This document shows positions 23,691 through 62,222 of a DNA stretch of 64,000 nt, one piece after another (within the stretch, counting starts at the first letter, position 1; each line of letters starts with the position of its first letter). The stretch is from a virus: positions 62,001 through 126,000 of IMG/VR virus record IMGVR_UViG_3300027747_002198; one strand, 5' to 3'. Below the pieces are notes generated by a model. The model saw nothing but the letters and a program-made list of their open reading frames with translations. It searched no databases and was not told where the DNA came from. The position numbers and the translations under genes were made by a program.

Positions 23691-24053
23691 ATGGAACATT
23701 GGGGAAAACACCTAATTATCGATGCCAAAGGCTGCGATATACAAAGAGCAAATGATCCAGAATATATCAAACATTTTACCAAAGAATTGGTAAGATTGAT
23801 TGAGATGGTTCCTTTTGGTGAACCACAAGTTGTCCATTTTGCGGATGGTGGCGACAAATCTGGATGGACTATGATACAGTTGATTGAAACATCAAACGTC
23901 ATAGGGCACTTCCTAGACCATAATGGAGACCTTTACCTTGATGTATTCAGTTGTAAAGATTTTTCGGAGCATACGGTTATAGGCGCTTTAAAGATGTTCT
24001 TTTCACCAGGTGAAATTAAACATCAAGTCATTTGGAGAGATGCTCGTAACTAA
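23691..24053 (+). CDS. speD: S-adenosylmethionine decarboxylase-like protein (SpeD)
   Basis: This 120-residue protein fits the bacterial class of AdoMet decarboxylase used in spermidine synthesis. It has KHLIIDAKGCD near the start, the region QLIETSNVIGHFLDHNGDLY where the processing serine lies, and LDVFSCKDF with the conserved Cys. The usual ESHI is ETSNV here, so the histidine after the pyruvoyl-forming serine appears changed; activity is uncertain. SpeD is a known cyanophage auxiliary gene. Confidence 0.78.
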   Translation: MEHWGKHLIIDAKGCDIQRANDPEYIKHFTKELVRLIEMVPFGEPQVVHFADGGDKSGWTMIQLIETSNVIGHFLDHNGDLYLDVFSCKDFSEHTVIGALKMFFSPGEIKHQVIWRDARN

Positions 24054-24122: not shown

Positions 24123-24635
24123 ATGCAGTTAAGTATAGTCGGTTGTCCCGATAAAAAACATTTCCGGCCGTATGTTAAAAGAGCGGCGCTATTTTACGCA
24201 CAAGAACTTATAAAACCTAAGATGTTGGAAAACATCTTTTTAAGAATTAAATTCAATAGTAAAATGAATGTATACGGATATGCTGAGATTTTAGAGTATA
24301 ATGAAAGCCGTAAAGCAAGAGAATTTCAAATAGAATTAAATCCAAACATTGGTGCGGCAGAAATATTAAAGTGTTTGGCACATGAAATGACCCATATTAA
24401 ACAATACGCTTACAATGAAACCAACGAAACCTTAACTCGTTGGAAAGGTATAAGAGTTGATTCTGATGTGGTAGATTATTGGGTTCAACCATGGGAAATA
24501 GAAGCATTTGGTAGAGAAGTCGGTCTATTTGCCAAGTTTGCAATTAAAGAAAAACTTTGGGATGTATTTTATGGAGTACAAAATCCTGATGGAGCAATAG
24601 AAATTGAAGAATTAGGTTGGAAAGAGCCTATATAA
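24123..24635 (+). CDS. SprT-like zinc metalloprotease-fold protein
   Basis: This 170-residue protein has LKCLAHEMTHIKQYAYNET, the HExxH zinc motif, and a later glutamate in QPWEIEAFGREVG that could be the third ligand. This matches small zincin proteins seen in T4-like marine phages. Target unknown; SprT-like proteins can act on DNA-bound proteins. It has a strong AAGGAGAG site and is the last protein gene before the tRNA leader region. Confidence 0.75.
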   Translation: MQLSIVGCPDKKHFRPYVKRAALFYAQELIKPKMLENIFLRIKFNSKMNVYGYAEILEYNESRKAREFQIELNPNIGAAEILKCLAHEMTHIKQYAYNETNETLTRWKGIRVDSDVVDYWVQPWEIEAFGREVGLFAKFAIKEKLWDVFYGVQNPDGAIEIEELGWKEPI

Positions 24636-24642
24636 AAGAACA

Positions 24643-24717
24643 ATGAAAAATTTACACATAACAACTTCCAATTATTATAATACATCAGGAACATGGTGTA
24701 GTGGGGTTCGTTTGTAA
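24643..24717 (+). CDS. Putative leader peptide of the tRNA segment, 24 residues
   Basis: The ORF begins seven bases after the protease stop. Codons 10-18 are AAT TAT TAT AAT ACA TCA GGA ACA TGG; all except TCA are read by tRNAs encoded downstream (Asn, Tyr, Thr, Gly, Trp). Its stop lies in the loop of a hairpin that competes with a terminator. The ribosome site is weak (AAAGAAC). TATAAT inside the ORF could instead be a promoter. Whether it is translated is not shown. Confidence 0.4.
   Translation: MKNLHITTSNYYNTSGTWCSGVRL
24651..24681 (+). promoter_or_regulatory. Possible sigma70-type promoter TTTACA-N19-TATAAT
   Basis: TATAAT at 24676-24681 is exact. The -35 candidate TTTACA at 24651-24656 has a long 19-base spacer (TTACAC gives 18). 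If used, the transcript starts near 24688, excludes the leader ORF start, and makes an RNA of about 85 nt ending at the terminator. Confidence 0.5.
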
Positions 24718-24772
24718 ATTTTTAAGTAACACAGATTTATACGAACCCAAGTCTAAACAACTTGGGTTTTTT
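24704..24772 (+). promoter_or_regulatory. Attenuator-like pair of mutually exclusive hairpins with terminator
   Basis: Hairpin 1 pairs GGGTTCGT (24704-24711) with ACGAACCC (24741-24748), extended by GTAAAT/ATTTAT. Hairpin 2 pairs AACCCAAG (24744-24751) with CTTGGGTT (24761-24768), followed by TTTTT: a terminator. They share bases 24744-24748, so only one can form. This is the architecture of an attenuator, directly before tRNA-Trp. Confidence 0.72.
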
Positions 24773-24781
24773 GTTTTCCGT

Positions 24782-24855
24782 GGCCTGCTGGTGTAATGGT
24801 AGCACAAGGCACTCCAAACGCCTTGGTCGGGGTTCGATTCCCTGGTGGGACGCCA
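24782..24855 (+). tRNA. tRNA-Trp (CCA)
   Basis: D-stem GTGT/GCAC, anticodon loop CTCCAAA with anticodon CCA, T-loop TTCGATT and discriminator G followed by encoded CCA. The acceptor stem has one mismatch at pair 2-71, and anticodon-stem pair 31-39 is A-C. G73 fits Trp identity. If the loop were drawn differently a Gly-TCC reading appears, but that needs a nine-base loop. Confidence 0.8.
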
Positions 24856-24913: not shown

Positions 24914-24949
24914 AGGTGTTGTGTGGAAACAACAGTATCAAAATGTTAC

Positions 24950-24978
24950 TTGACAGAAAATAGTTTGTCTAGTATAAT
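24950..24978 (+). promoter_or_regulatory. Perfect consensus sigma70 promoter TTGACA-N17-TATAAT
   Basis: The -35 is at 24950-24955 and the -10 at 24973-24978, exact in both hexamers with the optimal spacer. The expected start near 24985 is six bases before tRNA-Tyr. It is the strongest host-type promoter in the window. Confidence 0.93.
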
Positions 24979-24990
24979 AGTAGTTCAATT

Positions 24991-25074
24991 GGGGTAGAAG
25001 AATCAACGGTGATTCAGCGGCCTGTAAAGCCGCCGCCTCTGGCATGCTTGGTTCGATCCCAAGATACCCCACCA
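24991..25074 (+). tRNA. tRNA-Tyr (GTA)
   Basis: Anticodon stem GCGGC/GCCGC with loop CTGTAAA gives anticodon GTA. A long variable arm, T-stem CTTGG/CCAAG, loop TTCGATC and encoded CCA follow. Acceptor pair 7-66 is G-A, and the D arm is odd (GAATC/GATTC closing a six-base loop, AA instead of TA at positions 8-9), so the fold departs from standard. Confidence 0.8.
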
Positions 25075-25099
25075 GATTGTTGTATCAAGTGTAATGATT

Positions 25100-25160
25100 G
25101 GGTTGAGGACTTCTCGGCCGACAACAACGGAGGTGGCCGTCCCGTTTACATAACGAGCCC
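25100..25160 (+). other. Structured 5' leader before the small basic ORF
   Basis: CGGCC (25115-25119) pairs with GGCCG (25135-25139), flanked by GGAC/GTCC and by GGGTT (25100-25104) with GAGCCC (25155-25160). This G+C-rich block stands out from its AT-rich surroundings and lies between tRNA-Tyr and the ORF at 25182. It does not fit a tRNA. It may be an RNA processing or translation control element. Confidence 0.4.
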
Positions 25161-25181
25161 CATATTTTTAAGGAGAGTATT

Positions 25182-25400
25182 ATGAAAAAGAAAAATACTC
25201 CCCAACCTCGGAACTATCTTGTCAAATTGGCATTGTTTCGAAAAGCAGGGAGCCATCGTAAGAGTAACAAAGCAGTAAGGCGTAGTGAGAAGTCAAAAAG
25301 AAGTTATTATAGTGAAGTATACTGCCACTTAATACATATATGTGGAGTCCGGCCGGCGCACCTTCCACGGGTCAGCAATAGGTTCGAAACTATTGTGTAG
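25182..25400 (+). CDS. Small basic protein with structured 3' end
   Basis: The first about 45 residues (PRNYLVKLALFRKAGSHRKS, then NKAVRRSEKSKRSYY) match a widespread small basic phage protein pattern; ribosome site AAGGAGAG. From residue about 41 onward the frame runs through a large inverted-repeat element at 25301-25421 and ends VSNRFETIV, which looks like non-coding sequence read through. The original stop was probably lost by insertion of that element. Function unknown; nucleic-acid binding is plausible from charge. Confidence 0.6.
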   Translation: MKKKNTPQPRNYLVKLALFRKAGSHRKSNKAVRRSEKSKRSYYSEVYCHLIHICGVRPAHLPRVSNRFETIV

Positions 25401-25433: not shown

Positions 25434-25508
25434 GCCCTTTTAGCACAGCGGTAGTGCAGTGGTTTTGTAAACCAAAGGTCGGGAGTTCAAATCTCTCAGA
25501 GGGCACCA
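25434..25508 (+). tRNA. tRNA-Thr (TGT)
   Basis: Acceptor GCCCTTT/AGAGGGC, D-stem GCAC/GTGC, anticodon loop TTTGTAA (anticodon TGT), T-loop TTCAAAT and encoded CCA. Pair 27-43 is G-A. It reads ACA codons, which are common in this genome. Confidence 0.9.
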
Positions 25509-25527: not shown

Positions 25528-25556
25528 TTGACAATGTGTATAAGTAATGTTATAGT
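25528..25556 (+). promoter_or_regulatory. Sigma70-type promoter TTGACA-N17-TATAGT
   Basis: The -35 is at 25528-25533 and the -10 at 25551-25556. The leader (about 25563-25652) contains GCGGTG (25566-25571) pairing with CACCGC (25623-25628) around an inner AGATA/TATCT hairpin, so it is structured. Drives two small ORFs and probably tRNA-Gly and tRNA-Asn. Confidence 0.85.
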
Positions 25557-25652
25557 ATTGAATATGCGGTGTGTAATAGTACGATGTGAGATACCCTCTT
25601 ATATTATCTGAGCAAAGCAGACCACCGCTCCAAATTTTATTAGGGATTTATA

Positions 25653-25916: not shown

Positions 25917-25990
25917 GCGGGATTAGTTTAATGGTAAAACTACAGATTTCCAATCTGTTGTCATCGGTTCGATTCCGTTATCCCGCTCCA
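25917..25990 (+). tRNA. tRNA-Gly (TCC)
   Basis: Acceptor GCGGGAT/ATCCCGC, D-stem GTTT/AAAC, anticodon stem ACAGA/TCTGT with loop TTTCCAA, T-loop TTCGATT, discriminator T and encoded CCA. T-stem pair 50-64 is T-T. It reads GGA codons. Confidence 0.92.
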
Positions 25991-25991
25991 T

Positions 25992-26067
25992 TCCTCGATA
26001 GCTCAGTCGGTAGAGCAGCAGACTGTTAATCTGTTGGTCCGTGGTTCAAGTCCACGTTGGGGAGCCA
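25992..26067 (+). tRNA. tRNA-Asn (GTT)
   Basis: Acceptor TCCTCGA/TTGGGGA, D-stem GCTC/GAGC, anticodon loop CTGTTAA, T-stem CGTGG/CCACG, G73 and encoded CCA. It is one base from tRNA-Gly, so the two are probably co-processed. Its final CA also pairs with the base of the following RNA element. Confidence 0.94.
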
Positions 26068-26267
26068 TTGTTGAGAATGTGTGAAAAAGAGTAAGCAATC
26101 CTAACTGTTAAGGAATATCATCACCCTTGAGGTGTCCATCCGAGATCCGGAGATGACTGCTGGCTGAAGCAGTATGAAAGGTGTAATCAAGGGGAGGTCA
26201 GAGCATAGGACGGGTTAAAGACCGCACCGGCGAGAGCCTTTTAAACATAAAACAGTATTCTCAACAA
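26068..26267 (+). ncRNA. Structured RNA of about 200 nt, class unknown
   Basis: TTGTTGAGAAT (26068-26078) pairs with ATTCTCAACAA (26257-26267), enclosing CCCTTGA/TCAAGGG (26124-26130, 26187-26193), ACTGCT/AGCAGT (26156-26161, 26168-26173), TCCG/CGGA and GGC-GAGA-GCC hairpins. The segment has no ORF and is richer in G+C than its surroundings. It starts right after the CCA of tRNA-Asn and ends before the groES ribosome site. I could not match it to RNase P, tmRNA, 6S or a group I intron. Confidence 0.62.
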
Positions 26268-26299: not shown

Positions 26300-26554
26300 A
26301 TGATAATCGTAGATGAAATGACACCAACAAAAGATAACATCATTGTGGATCGTATTGCTGGTGAAAAAGAAACAGAATCAGGAATTATTTTAAAATCATC
26401 CGATGGACCAGACCGTGCAAAAGTGATTGCTATTGGTCCTAAAGTTGATGAAGTTGAAGTTGGTGATGAAGTATTACTTAACTGGAATGGTGCAGTGAAA
26501 ATTGCTAATGAACGTTATGTAATCAAAATTGAACACGTTGTTTTAATTTATTAA
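26300..26554 (+). CDS. GroES-like co-chaperonin
   Basis: This 84-residue protein has the cpn10 pattern: PTKDNIIVDRIAGEKETESG, IILKSSDGPDRAKVIAIGP, VEVGDEVLLNWNGAVKI. The mobile-loop region (ETESGIILK) that contacts GroEL is present. T4 uses gp31 for the same job, folding gp23 with host GroEL; marine relatives use this GroES-type protein. Ribosome site AAGGAA. It lies between the structured RNA and the initiator-like tRNA. Confidence 0.9.
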   Translation: MIIVDEMTPTKDNIIVDRIAGEKETESGIILKSSDGPDRAKVIAIGPKVDEVEVGDEVLLNWNGAVKIANERYVIKIEHVVLIY

Positions 26555-60434: not shown

Positions 60435-62222
60435 ATGGAATATCTAGGTATCAATATAGATTTAGAAAGAGATAAACTGTTTGATGAATTGGGCATCAGA
60501 CGATTAAAAGAAAGTTACATGAAAGAAAATGAAGAAAGTCCACAACACAGATTTGCATACGTCAGCAAAACGTTCAGTTCCAACCCAGAGCATGCCCAAC
60601 GATTATATGATTATAGCTCTAAACATTGGTTATCTTATAGCACTCCCATTCTTAGTTTTGGTCGTTCTAAGCGTGGGATGCCTATATCGTGTTTCCTTAA
60701 TTATATCGAAGATACTGCGGAGGGATTAGTTGATAACTTATCAGAAACTAACTGGCTCTCTATGCTTGGCGGTGGTGTTGGTATTGGTTTTGGTATTCGG
60801 TCTGCCGATGATAAGTCTACTGGCGTTATGCCGCATCTTAAAATTTATGATGCAAGTTCTCTTGCTTATCGCCAAGGTCGCACTCGCCGTGGCAGTTACG
60901 CCGCTTATCTTAATATTTCTCATCCTGATATCATTGCGTTCCTAGAAATAAGAAAACCAACGGGTGATCCCAATCAGCGGTGTTTAAATCTACATCACGG
61001 TATCAACATTACAGATGACTTTATGGAAATCATTGAAAAGGCTATGTTGGATCCCGAAGTTGATGACTCTTGGACATTAAAAGATCCACACACAGGAGAA
61101 ATTCGTGAAGTTGTGTCGGCTAAACACCTGTGGCAACAAATTTTAGAATTGCGTATGCACACCGGCGAACCATATATTCACTATATCGATACAAGTAACC
61201 GAGAATTACCACAATGGCTGAAGGACAAAGGATTGAAGGTACACCAATCAAATCTTTGTTCTGAAATTATATTACCAACAAATGAACAACGCACAGCAGT
61301 ATGTTGTTTATCTTCTTTGAATTTGGAGACCTATGATGAATGGAAAGACAACAAACTTTTTCTTAAAGACGTTGCTGAGATGCTTGATAACGTGCTTAAC
61401 TACTTTATTGATAACGCTCCTGATAGTATCAGTCGTGCTAGATATTCCGCTGAGCGAGAGCGCTCCATTGGCATTGGTGCTCTCGGCTTTCATGCTTATC
61501 TACAGCGTAACGGAATTGCTTTTGAAGGAGTTATGGCCAAAGTTGCTAACAACAAAATCTTCAAATCAATCAGACGTGGGTTAGATGAAGCAAATCTTGA
61601 ATTGGGTAAAGAACGTGGTGAAGCTCCTGATGCTATTGGTACTGGCCGCAGGTTCAGTCATGTTATGGCCATTGCTCCTAATGCCTCATCTTCCATCATT
61701 ATGGGTAATACCAGTCCATCTATTGAGCCCTATCGTGCTAATGCTTATCGTCAAGATACTTTATCGGGATCATTCTTAAATAAGAATCGTTGGCTCGACA
61801 AAATAATTAAGGAGAAAACAAATGGTAGTGAACAAGATTACGCTGATGCTTGGTCTAGCATTATTGCTAATGATGGTAGCTGTCAGCACCTTGATATACT
61901 CTCTGAAGCAGAACGTGATGTTTTCAAAACCTCAATGGAAATCGATCAAAGATGGGTTATTGAATTGGCTGGCGACCGTCAAGCATATATTGACCAAGCA
62001 CAATCATTAAACCTATTTTTTAGACCAGATGCACATATTAAGTATATTCATGCTATTCATTTCATGGCATGGAAAAAAGGATTGAAAACTTTATACTATT
62101 GCCGTTCAGAGAAGATTGGCAAAGCAGATAAAGTTTCAAAACGTATTGAAAGACAAGTTATTAAGGAGTTAGACATGGAACAAATTGCGCAAGGCAACGA
62201 CTGTATTGCTTGTGAGGGATAA
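60435..62222 (+). CDS. nrdA: Ribonucleotide reductase large subunit NrdA, no ATP-cone
   Basis: This 595-residue class I alpha subunit has the active-site cysteines in GMPISCFLNYIED, NLCSEIILPT and CCLSSLNLE, plus the mobile C-terminal pair CIACEG. It begins after the usual position of the regulatory ATP-cone, so it is shorter than T4 NrdA (754) and probably insensitive to dATP shut-off at that site. It makes deoxynucleotides for phage DNA. Sulfotransferase gene follows after two bases. Confidence 0.95.
   Translation: MEYLGINIDLERDKLFDELGIRRLKESYMKENEESPQHRFAYVSKTFSSNPEHAQRLYDYSSKHWLSYSTPILSFGRSKRGMPISCFLNYIEDTAEGLVDNLSETNWLSMLGGGVGIGFGIRSADDKSTGVMPHLKIYDASSLAYRQGRTRRGSYAAYLNISHPDIIAFLEIRKPTGDPNQRCLNLHHGINITDDFMEIIEKAMLDPEVDDSWTLKDPHTGEIREVVSAKHLWQQILELRMHTGEPYIHYIDTSNRELPQWLKDKGLKVHQSNLCSEIILPTNEQRTAVCCLSSLNLETYDEWKDNKLFLKDVAEMLDNVLNYFIDNAPDSISRARYSAERERSIGIGALGFHAYLQRNGIAFEGVMAKVANNKIFKSIRRGLDEANLELGKERGEAPDAIGTGRRFSHVMAIAPNASSSIIMGNTSPSIEPYRANAYRQDTLSGSFLNKNRWLDKIIKEKTNGSEQDYADAWSSIIANDGSCQHLDILSEAERDVFKTSMEIDQRWVIELAGDRQAYIDQAQSLNLFFRPDAHIKYIHAIHFMAWKKGLKTLYYCRSEKIGKADKVSKRIERQVIKELDMEQIAQGNDCIACEG

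Follow-up and report, generated by a model that had tools for sequence, protein, structure and literature searches.

Why should a transfer RNA (tRNA) gene of a phage be preceded by a short open reading frame (ORF) that ends inside a hairpin? This question is raised by the leader at 24643-24772 in a stretch of 64,000 nucleotides (the window; positions 62,001 to 126,000 of the IMG/VR record IMGVR_UViG_3300027747_002198). The source is an uncultured freshwater bacterial virus, and the window is part of its 161.8 kilobase (kb) record. The leader sits between the gene of a putative HExxH protein (24123-24635) and tRNA-Trp(cca) (24782-24855); all the features described here are on the + strand. Judged from its sequence and from that of its relatives, the leader is likely to be a ribosome-mediated transcription attenuator before a phage tRNA array, which would act as a multiplex sensor of tRNA shortage. 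Scans of IMG/VR showed these parts in the same order in tens of contigs from uncultured viruses, with several dissimilar leader families. The conserved order is a promoter-like element, an ORF, an antiterminator, a terminator, and tRNA.

Leader ORF and competing RNA structures

The leader ORF (24643-24717) has 24 codons, MKNLHITTSNYYNTSGTWCSGVRL-stop, and its stop codon (24715-24717) is part of the 5' arm of hairpin 1, the antiterminator. This hairpin pairs GGGTTCGT (24704-24711) with ACGAACCC (24741-24748), and is extended by 24714-24721 pairing with 24733-24740. Its 5' and 3' arms are segment 2 (24703-24723) and segment 3 (24733-24748). The strong intrinsic terminator (24743-24772) consists of the 3:4 hairpin (24743-24769) and a T run. 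Both structures use 24743-24748; the terminator and hairpin 1 are therefore mutually exclusive. An ORF ending in hairpin 1 and a terminator before tRNA-Trp had been described in the original prediction, and these features were borne out with their coordinates. A third structure had been overlooked: segment 1 (24646-24668) is predicted to pair with segment 2 and to form a 1:2 anti-antiterminator. The complete leader folded into 1:2 and the terminator; without its 5' part, it folded into the 2:3 antiterminator. By these predicted folds, the window leader is of the classical three-structure (trp-type) attenuator architecture.

Relatives were gathered from IMG/VR by the neighbour gene and by the segment-2, promoter-ATG, and terminator sequences. 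The whole leader of the window was more stable than its shuffles (z -3.4), and all 30 leaders examined surpassed their dinucleotide shuffles (z -2.1 to -5.9). Across these 30 leaders, the terminator always surpassed the shuffles; the 1:2 and 2:3 parts did so in most. Most leaders folded as 1:2 and 3:4, with 2:3 as the alternative. The antiterminator pairing was kept across families despite sequence change (GGGTTCGTGT/ACACGAACCC, GGGTTTGTGT/ACACAAACCC, and GGGTTTTGTGT/ACACAAAACCC), and the terminator showed compensatory change (CCCAAG/CTTGGG versus CCCTAG/CTAGGG). Compensatory changes in the terminator stem exceeded those in 500 of 500 shuffles; double changes in the antiterminator exceeded 499 of 500, yet with fewer pair types. 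An exclusive antiterminator and intrinsic terminator are thus found, with segment 3 shared and compensatory changes in both stems.

The ORF itself is also conserved. In 15 of 15 distinct sequences of the window family, the promoter-proximal ATG and the GGGGTTCG element are 54, 57, 60, or 63 bases apart, and the frame between them is kept and open throughout; insertions and deletions in the ORF were multiples of three in all 15 distinct relatives. Translation of this short leader ORF 5' of the regulated genes, as in ribosome-mediated attenuators, is predicted from the in-frame conservation. The comparison of related phages that had been proposed as a check thus found both compensatory changes and an in-frame ORF. 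Directly 5' of the ATG, a -10-like TATATAAA element (24627-24642) overlaps the end of the upstream gene and may set the start site. A TATATAA-like motif a few nucleotides 5' of the ATG is common to the relatives. Those without overlap of the upstream gene carry a full TTGACA-17-TATAAT promoter, with the expected start approximately at the AUG or within a few nucleotides. The transcript probably starts at about the AUG, and the start is probably leaderless in several relatives.

Correspondence between leader codons and phage tRNAs

The sampler codons of the window leader (TCC AAT TAT TAT AAT ACA TCA GGA ACA TGG, 24667-24696) correspond to tRNA genes for Trp, Tyr, Thr, Gly, and Asn, which are all located less than 1.3 kb downstream. 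Eight of the nine consecutive codons from AAT to TGG had been said to be read by these tRNAs, and this holds; the only exception is TCA (Ser). In the window leader, 11 of 23 codons can be read by the phage's own tRNAs, whereas windows of its own genes average 3.6 (p = 0.001); 5 of 5 own tRNA species are covered (p = 0.0097). Such codons had been noted as common in AT-rich genomes; the match in the window leader is more than chance. An inner hairpin inside the predicted 1:2 fold (24681-24700; 24681-24687 with 24694-24700) pairs ACATCA with TGGTGT and constrains the Thr-Ser and Trp-Cys codons; part of the codon match in the window therefore has a second cause.

The window was originally chosen for its codon match, and tests were hence also run with the window left out. 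DNA patterns, and not codon content, served to find the relatives, although one pattern did require the Trp codon. Seven leaders found by a pattern of segment 2 only cover 5/5, 18/20, 13/16, 7/7, 5/5, 6/6, and 5/5 of their own tRNA species. Within each phage, more of its tRNA species are covered by the leader than by windows of its genes (median p 0.012 for family 1, 0.007 for the other families); the combined p-values, 5e-13 and 2e-12, respectively, overstate the case because the leaders within a family are related. In a stricter test, tRNA sets were permuted among 14 family-1 phages to see, by amino acid, whether each leader suits its own phage better than it suits others of the family. This gave p = 1e-4 (1.6e-4 without the window). 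The value was 0.0015 when the window was excluded and only arrays having 3.4 kb or more downstream were used, 0.0025 when permuted within leader subtypes only, and again 1e-4 without homology-recovered tRNAs. For the variable amino acids, 72% of cases with the tRNA had the residue in the leader, as against 23% of those without it.

Family-1 phages have 3-11 tRNA species, and which amino acids a leader samples depends on that set; Ala, Pro, and Cys codons occur almost only alongside the matching tRNA. Leaders before arrays of 13-25 species contain 16-20 different amino acids in 31-42 codons. Total codon matches, as opposed to species covered, showed no enrichment in these large arrays, where nearly every codon is readable. 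With wobble allowed in four-codon boxes, the leaders cover 41 of the 43 tRNAs that come before the next promoter-like site and 43/56 of the later ones. The permutation test and this first-block coverage indicate that the leader codons are cognate to the downstream supply.

Several phage tRNAs in L210-L241 were missed by ARAGORN; they are 81-96% identical to tRNAs called in relatives. Homology search recovered His in L217 and Tyr in L219 and L221, whose leaders contain these residues. Tyr in L229, Ala in L232, and Val in L240 and L241, from other families, were recovered likewise and match leader codons. The tRNA sets in the permutation include recovered tRNAs; a few recovered Met, Asn, and Ile candidates were left unused.

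Proposed mechanism and rival explanations

The control of read-through by tRNA supply, as first proposed, is supported by the in-frame ORF, by the compensatory hairpin changes, and by codons that track the tRNA sets in relatives, from which we infer the following regulation. In the absence of a ribosome, segments 1:2 and 3:4 would pair and transcription would stop. A fast ribosome reaching the stop codon would cover segment 2, and the terminator 3:4 would form. If the ribosome were slowed at any sampler codon by shortage of the charged tRNA, 1:2 would be opened and segment 2 would be free to pair with segment 3. The 2:3 pairing would prevent the terminator, and the polymerase would enter the tRNA genes. 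The array would be released when the cell is short of the tRNAs that it supplies. In family 1, the Trp codon invariably precedes the GGGG of segment 2 by two codons. The ribosome footprint extends about 15 nucleotides from the P site. The Trp codon would therefore be the last stall site that leaves most of segment 2 free, in keeping with a need for all sampler codons to precede that point.

Read-through at a low supply of the sampled tRNAs agrees with attenuation theory (PMC1183508). Cleavage of tRNAs is an anti-phage defence that is countered by phage tRNAs (PMC10264068; PMC11555353), and the attenuator might be linked to this host defence. For the near-pangram leaders, the chances appear evenly balanced that one attenuator monitors most or all of the array tRNAs and switches on replacements when anticodon nucleases or the infection deplete them, with the leader evolving in step with tRNA gain and loss.

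Several observations weigh against this mechanism. Stalls at late sampler codons leave segment 1 upstream of the ribosome, where it could in principle still pair. The 1:2 structure, predicted in most leaders, is weak in a few; taken alone, this fold is weak in several leaders (L247, z 0.2; L233, z -0.4). The window promoter copy has no recognisable -35 element. Strict decoding lowers the first-block coverage to 38/43 and gives p = 0.008. Some tRNAs are unsampled (Glu in 7 phages, Gly in 3, and Arg in 3), mostly in later blocks; conversely, Asn, Thr, Ser, and His codons are sampled in some phages with no detected tRNA. The ACATCA/TGGTGT inner hairpin may explain the Thr-Ser codons without tRNA, and the contigs are also incomplete. 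The relatedness of the phages was only partly controlled. Moreover, L008, L009, and L055 keep a similar terminator directly after the upstream gene, without ORF or segment 2; the attenuator module is therefore not universal. Loss and precursor fit this state alike. In L008 and L009, a new promoter is present between the terminator and the tRNAs.

Most arrays also contain internal promoters, so that later tRNAs need not depend on read-through. In the window, a consensus TTGACA-17-TATAAT promoter (24950-24978) precedes tRNA-Tyr(gta) (24991-25074). Hence tRNA-Trp is the sole tRNA placed after the attenuator alone; for tRNA-Tyr and the genes after it, this promoter is a possible second source of transcription.

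Among the rival explanations, a general sensor of translation capacity survives best. The attenuator would be real, many amino acids would be sampled for any slow-down, and the match to own tRNAs would be secondary. This is a tenable minority view: the 16-20 amino acids in the leaders of large arrays often exceed those in own-gene windows, and Trp is present in every leader examined. However, the sampled set of family 1 follows its tRNA set, as for Ala, Pro, and Cys. A nascent-peptide arrest attenuator (TnaC-like), in which a C-terminal WxxGVRL-stop would stall the ribosome on a ligand with incidental codon content, is improbable. The WxxGVRL-stop motif is invariant in family 1, but the pattern scans favoured this stretch, and its bases are those of segment 2. 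Different families read the segment-2 RNA in different frames (GVRV, GFCV, and GVCV), and some have no motif; the conserved peptide end therefore reflects RNA pairing, with which it coincides, whereas the remaining peptide varies with the tRNA set.

A functional micropeptide, with a terminator that merely ends the ORF transcript and tRNA genes that adjoin by coincidence, is very unlikely. That several relatives have a separate promoter for a short transcript would suit it; however, peptides of different families share little, their composition follows the tRNA set, and the competing antiterminator would have no role. Least probable is an ordinary boundary, in which the TATAAT (24676-24681) of a promoter with a 10/12 match (24651-24681) and the terminator would make a short untranslated RNA with a chance ORF; this is largely refuted, since that promoter is absent in nearly all relatives, the ORF is in frame in 15/15 of them, and 26 such promoter matches compare with 24.6 expected by chance. 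The caveat that a TATAAT promoter excludes the ORF falls as well, because the relatives keep the ORF and not the promoter; this promoter inside the ORF was rejected as unconserved. A ribosome-mediated attenuator sensing the tRNAs of its own array is thus the preferred reading.

The tRNA array and comparison with known systems

The remaining tRNA genes of the window are tRNA-Thr(tgt) (25434-25508), tRNA-Gly(tcc) (25917-25990), and tRNA-Asn(gtt) (25992-26067). No further tRNAs were found in the 20 kb flanks on either side of the window, the outer remainder being scanned with the Rfam tRNA model only. The DNA polymerase of the virus is nearest to those of Prochlorococcus and Synechococcus myoviruses (about 50% identity), which suggests a T4-like phage. 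The HExxH protein gene had no match in a Pfam search. S-adenosylmethionine decarboxylase-like and chaperonin-10-like genes (23691-24053 and 26300-26554) lie beside and inside the tRNA array. A small basic ORF (25182-25400, MKKKNTPQPRNYLVKLALFRKAG...) has no Pfam match, and is kept here or nearby in many relatives (L016-L020, L078, and L080).

Directly 3' of a strong promoter (25528-25556), there is a tight tRNA-like fold (25564-25632, GCGGTGTG...CACCGCTCC), which was uncalled by ARAGORN and Rfam. It is kept in many relatives (e.g. L028, L047, and L050), with an alternative form, GCGGTCGGGG...CCGCTCCA, in L045, L049, and L059; it may be a Gly-like tRNA that has diverged and whose anticodon loop is odd. 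Between tRNA genes there are two stretches (25078-25165 and 26080-26262) that are rich in G+C and look structured; neither had an Rfam match, and the former was found again in L014 and L023. An inverted repeat, GTTGT-GTGGAA-ACAAC (24917-24932), lies just 5' of the internal promoter at 24950 and is a possible operator. Similar inverted repeats (TTGTTTTGGTACAACA) are located 5' of internal promoters in L055 and L063.

Rfam scans found no family for the leader, and its peptides had no credible match in 50,697 phage records. A weak match in Macromonas phage BK-30P (T7-like; E 0.1) was judged to be chance. The tRNA arrays of Sf-CH5, S-SCSM2R, and AP1 have no leader in their annotation, no scan for leader structures having been made. 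The main text of PMC10264068 contains none of the words leader, attenuation, and promoter. The original prediction knew of no described phage tRNA operon with such control, and neither a phage tRNA attenuator nor a counterpart in a cultured phage was found in the literature and collections searched, which are incomplete. Attenuation is an established principle; applying it to phage tRNA arrays through a sampler of many codons appears to be new. The reason for tRNA genes in phage genomes has long been sought, and has recently been connected with host defences that cleave tRNAs. A switch that responds to the state of these very tRNAs would show directly under what condition the phage requires them, and the need could be read at sequence level from the leader codons. 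If true, attenuation would be widened from a response to a single amino acid, or a few, to a sensor with many inputs.

The E. coli trp, his, thr, and ilvGMEDA attenuators (modelled in PMC1183508) are alike in their 1:2, 2:3, and 3:4 alternatives, in the intrinsic terminator before the regulated genes, and in that the ribosome position decides. These amino-acid operon attenuators regulate biosynthetic genes, whereas the phage leader precedes tRNA genes. Its regulatory codons cover many amino acids (at most all 20), with one or two codons for each; the choice of codons follows the tRNA genes, and the start is probably leaderless in several relatives. The ilv and thr leaders sense more than one amino acid. 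A biosynthesis or aminoacylation operon is typical downstream of attenuators, outside the mechanism itself; here the regulated genes are tRNA genes, and the phage leader would therefore work like the attenuators but is not a member of any named leader family. No covariance model of the Rfam Trp, His, Leu, and Thr leader families matched it.

The T-box riboswitch is also an RNA element that senses tRNA charging upstream of translation-related genes. However, T-box RNA binds tRNA directly without translation, whereas the phage leader has a predicted translated ORF; the T-box covariance model had no match at the leader in the Rfam scans (gathering threshold or E up to 10). The TnaC and ErmCL arrest leaders similarly stall the ribosome by a leader peptide and switch RNA structure. 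They need a conserved peptide and a ligand, whereas the middle of the phage peptide varies and its conserved end reflects RNA pairing. Phage tRNA arrays that replace cleaved host tRNAs (PMC10264068; PMC11555353) are the same genes as those downstream of the leader, and tRNA loss during infection is likely to be the signal of the attenuator.
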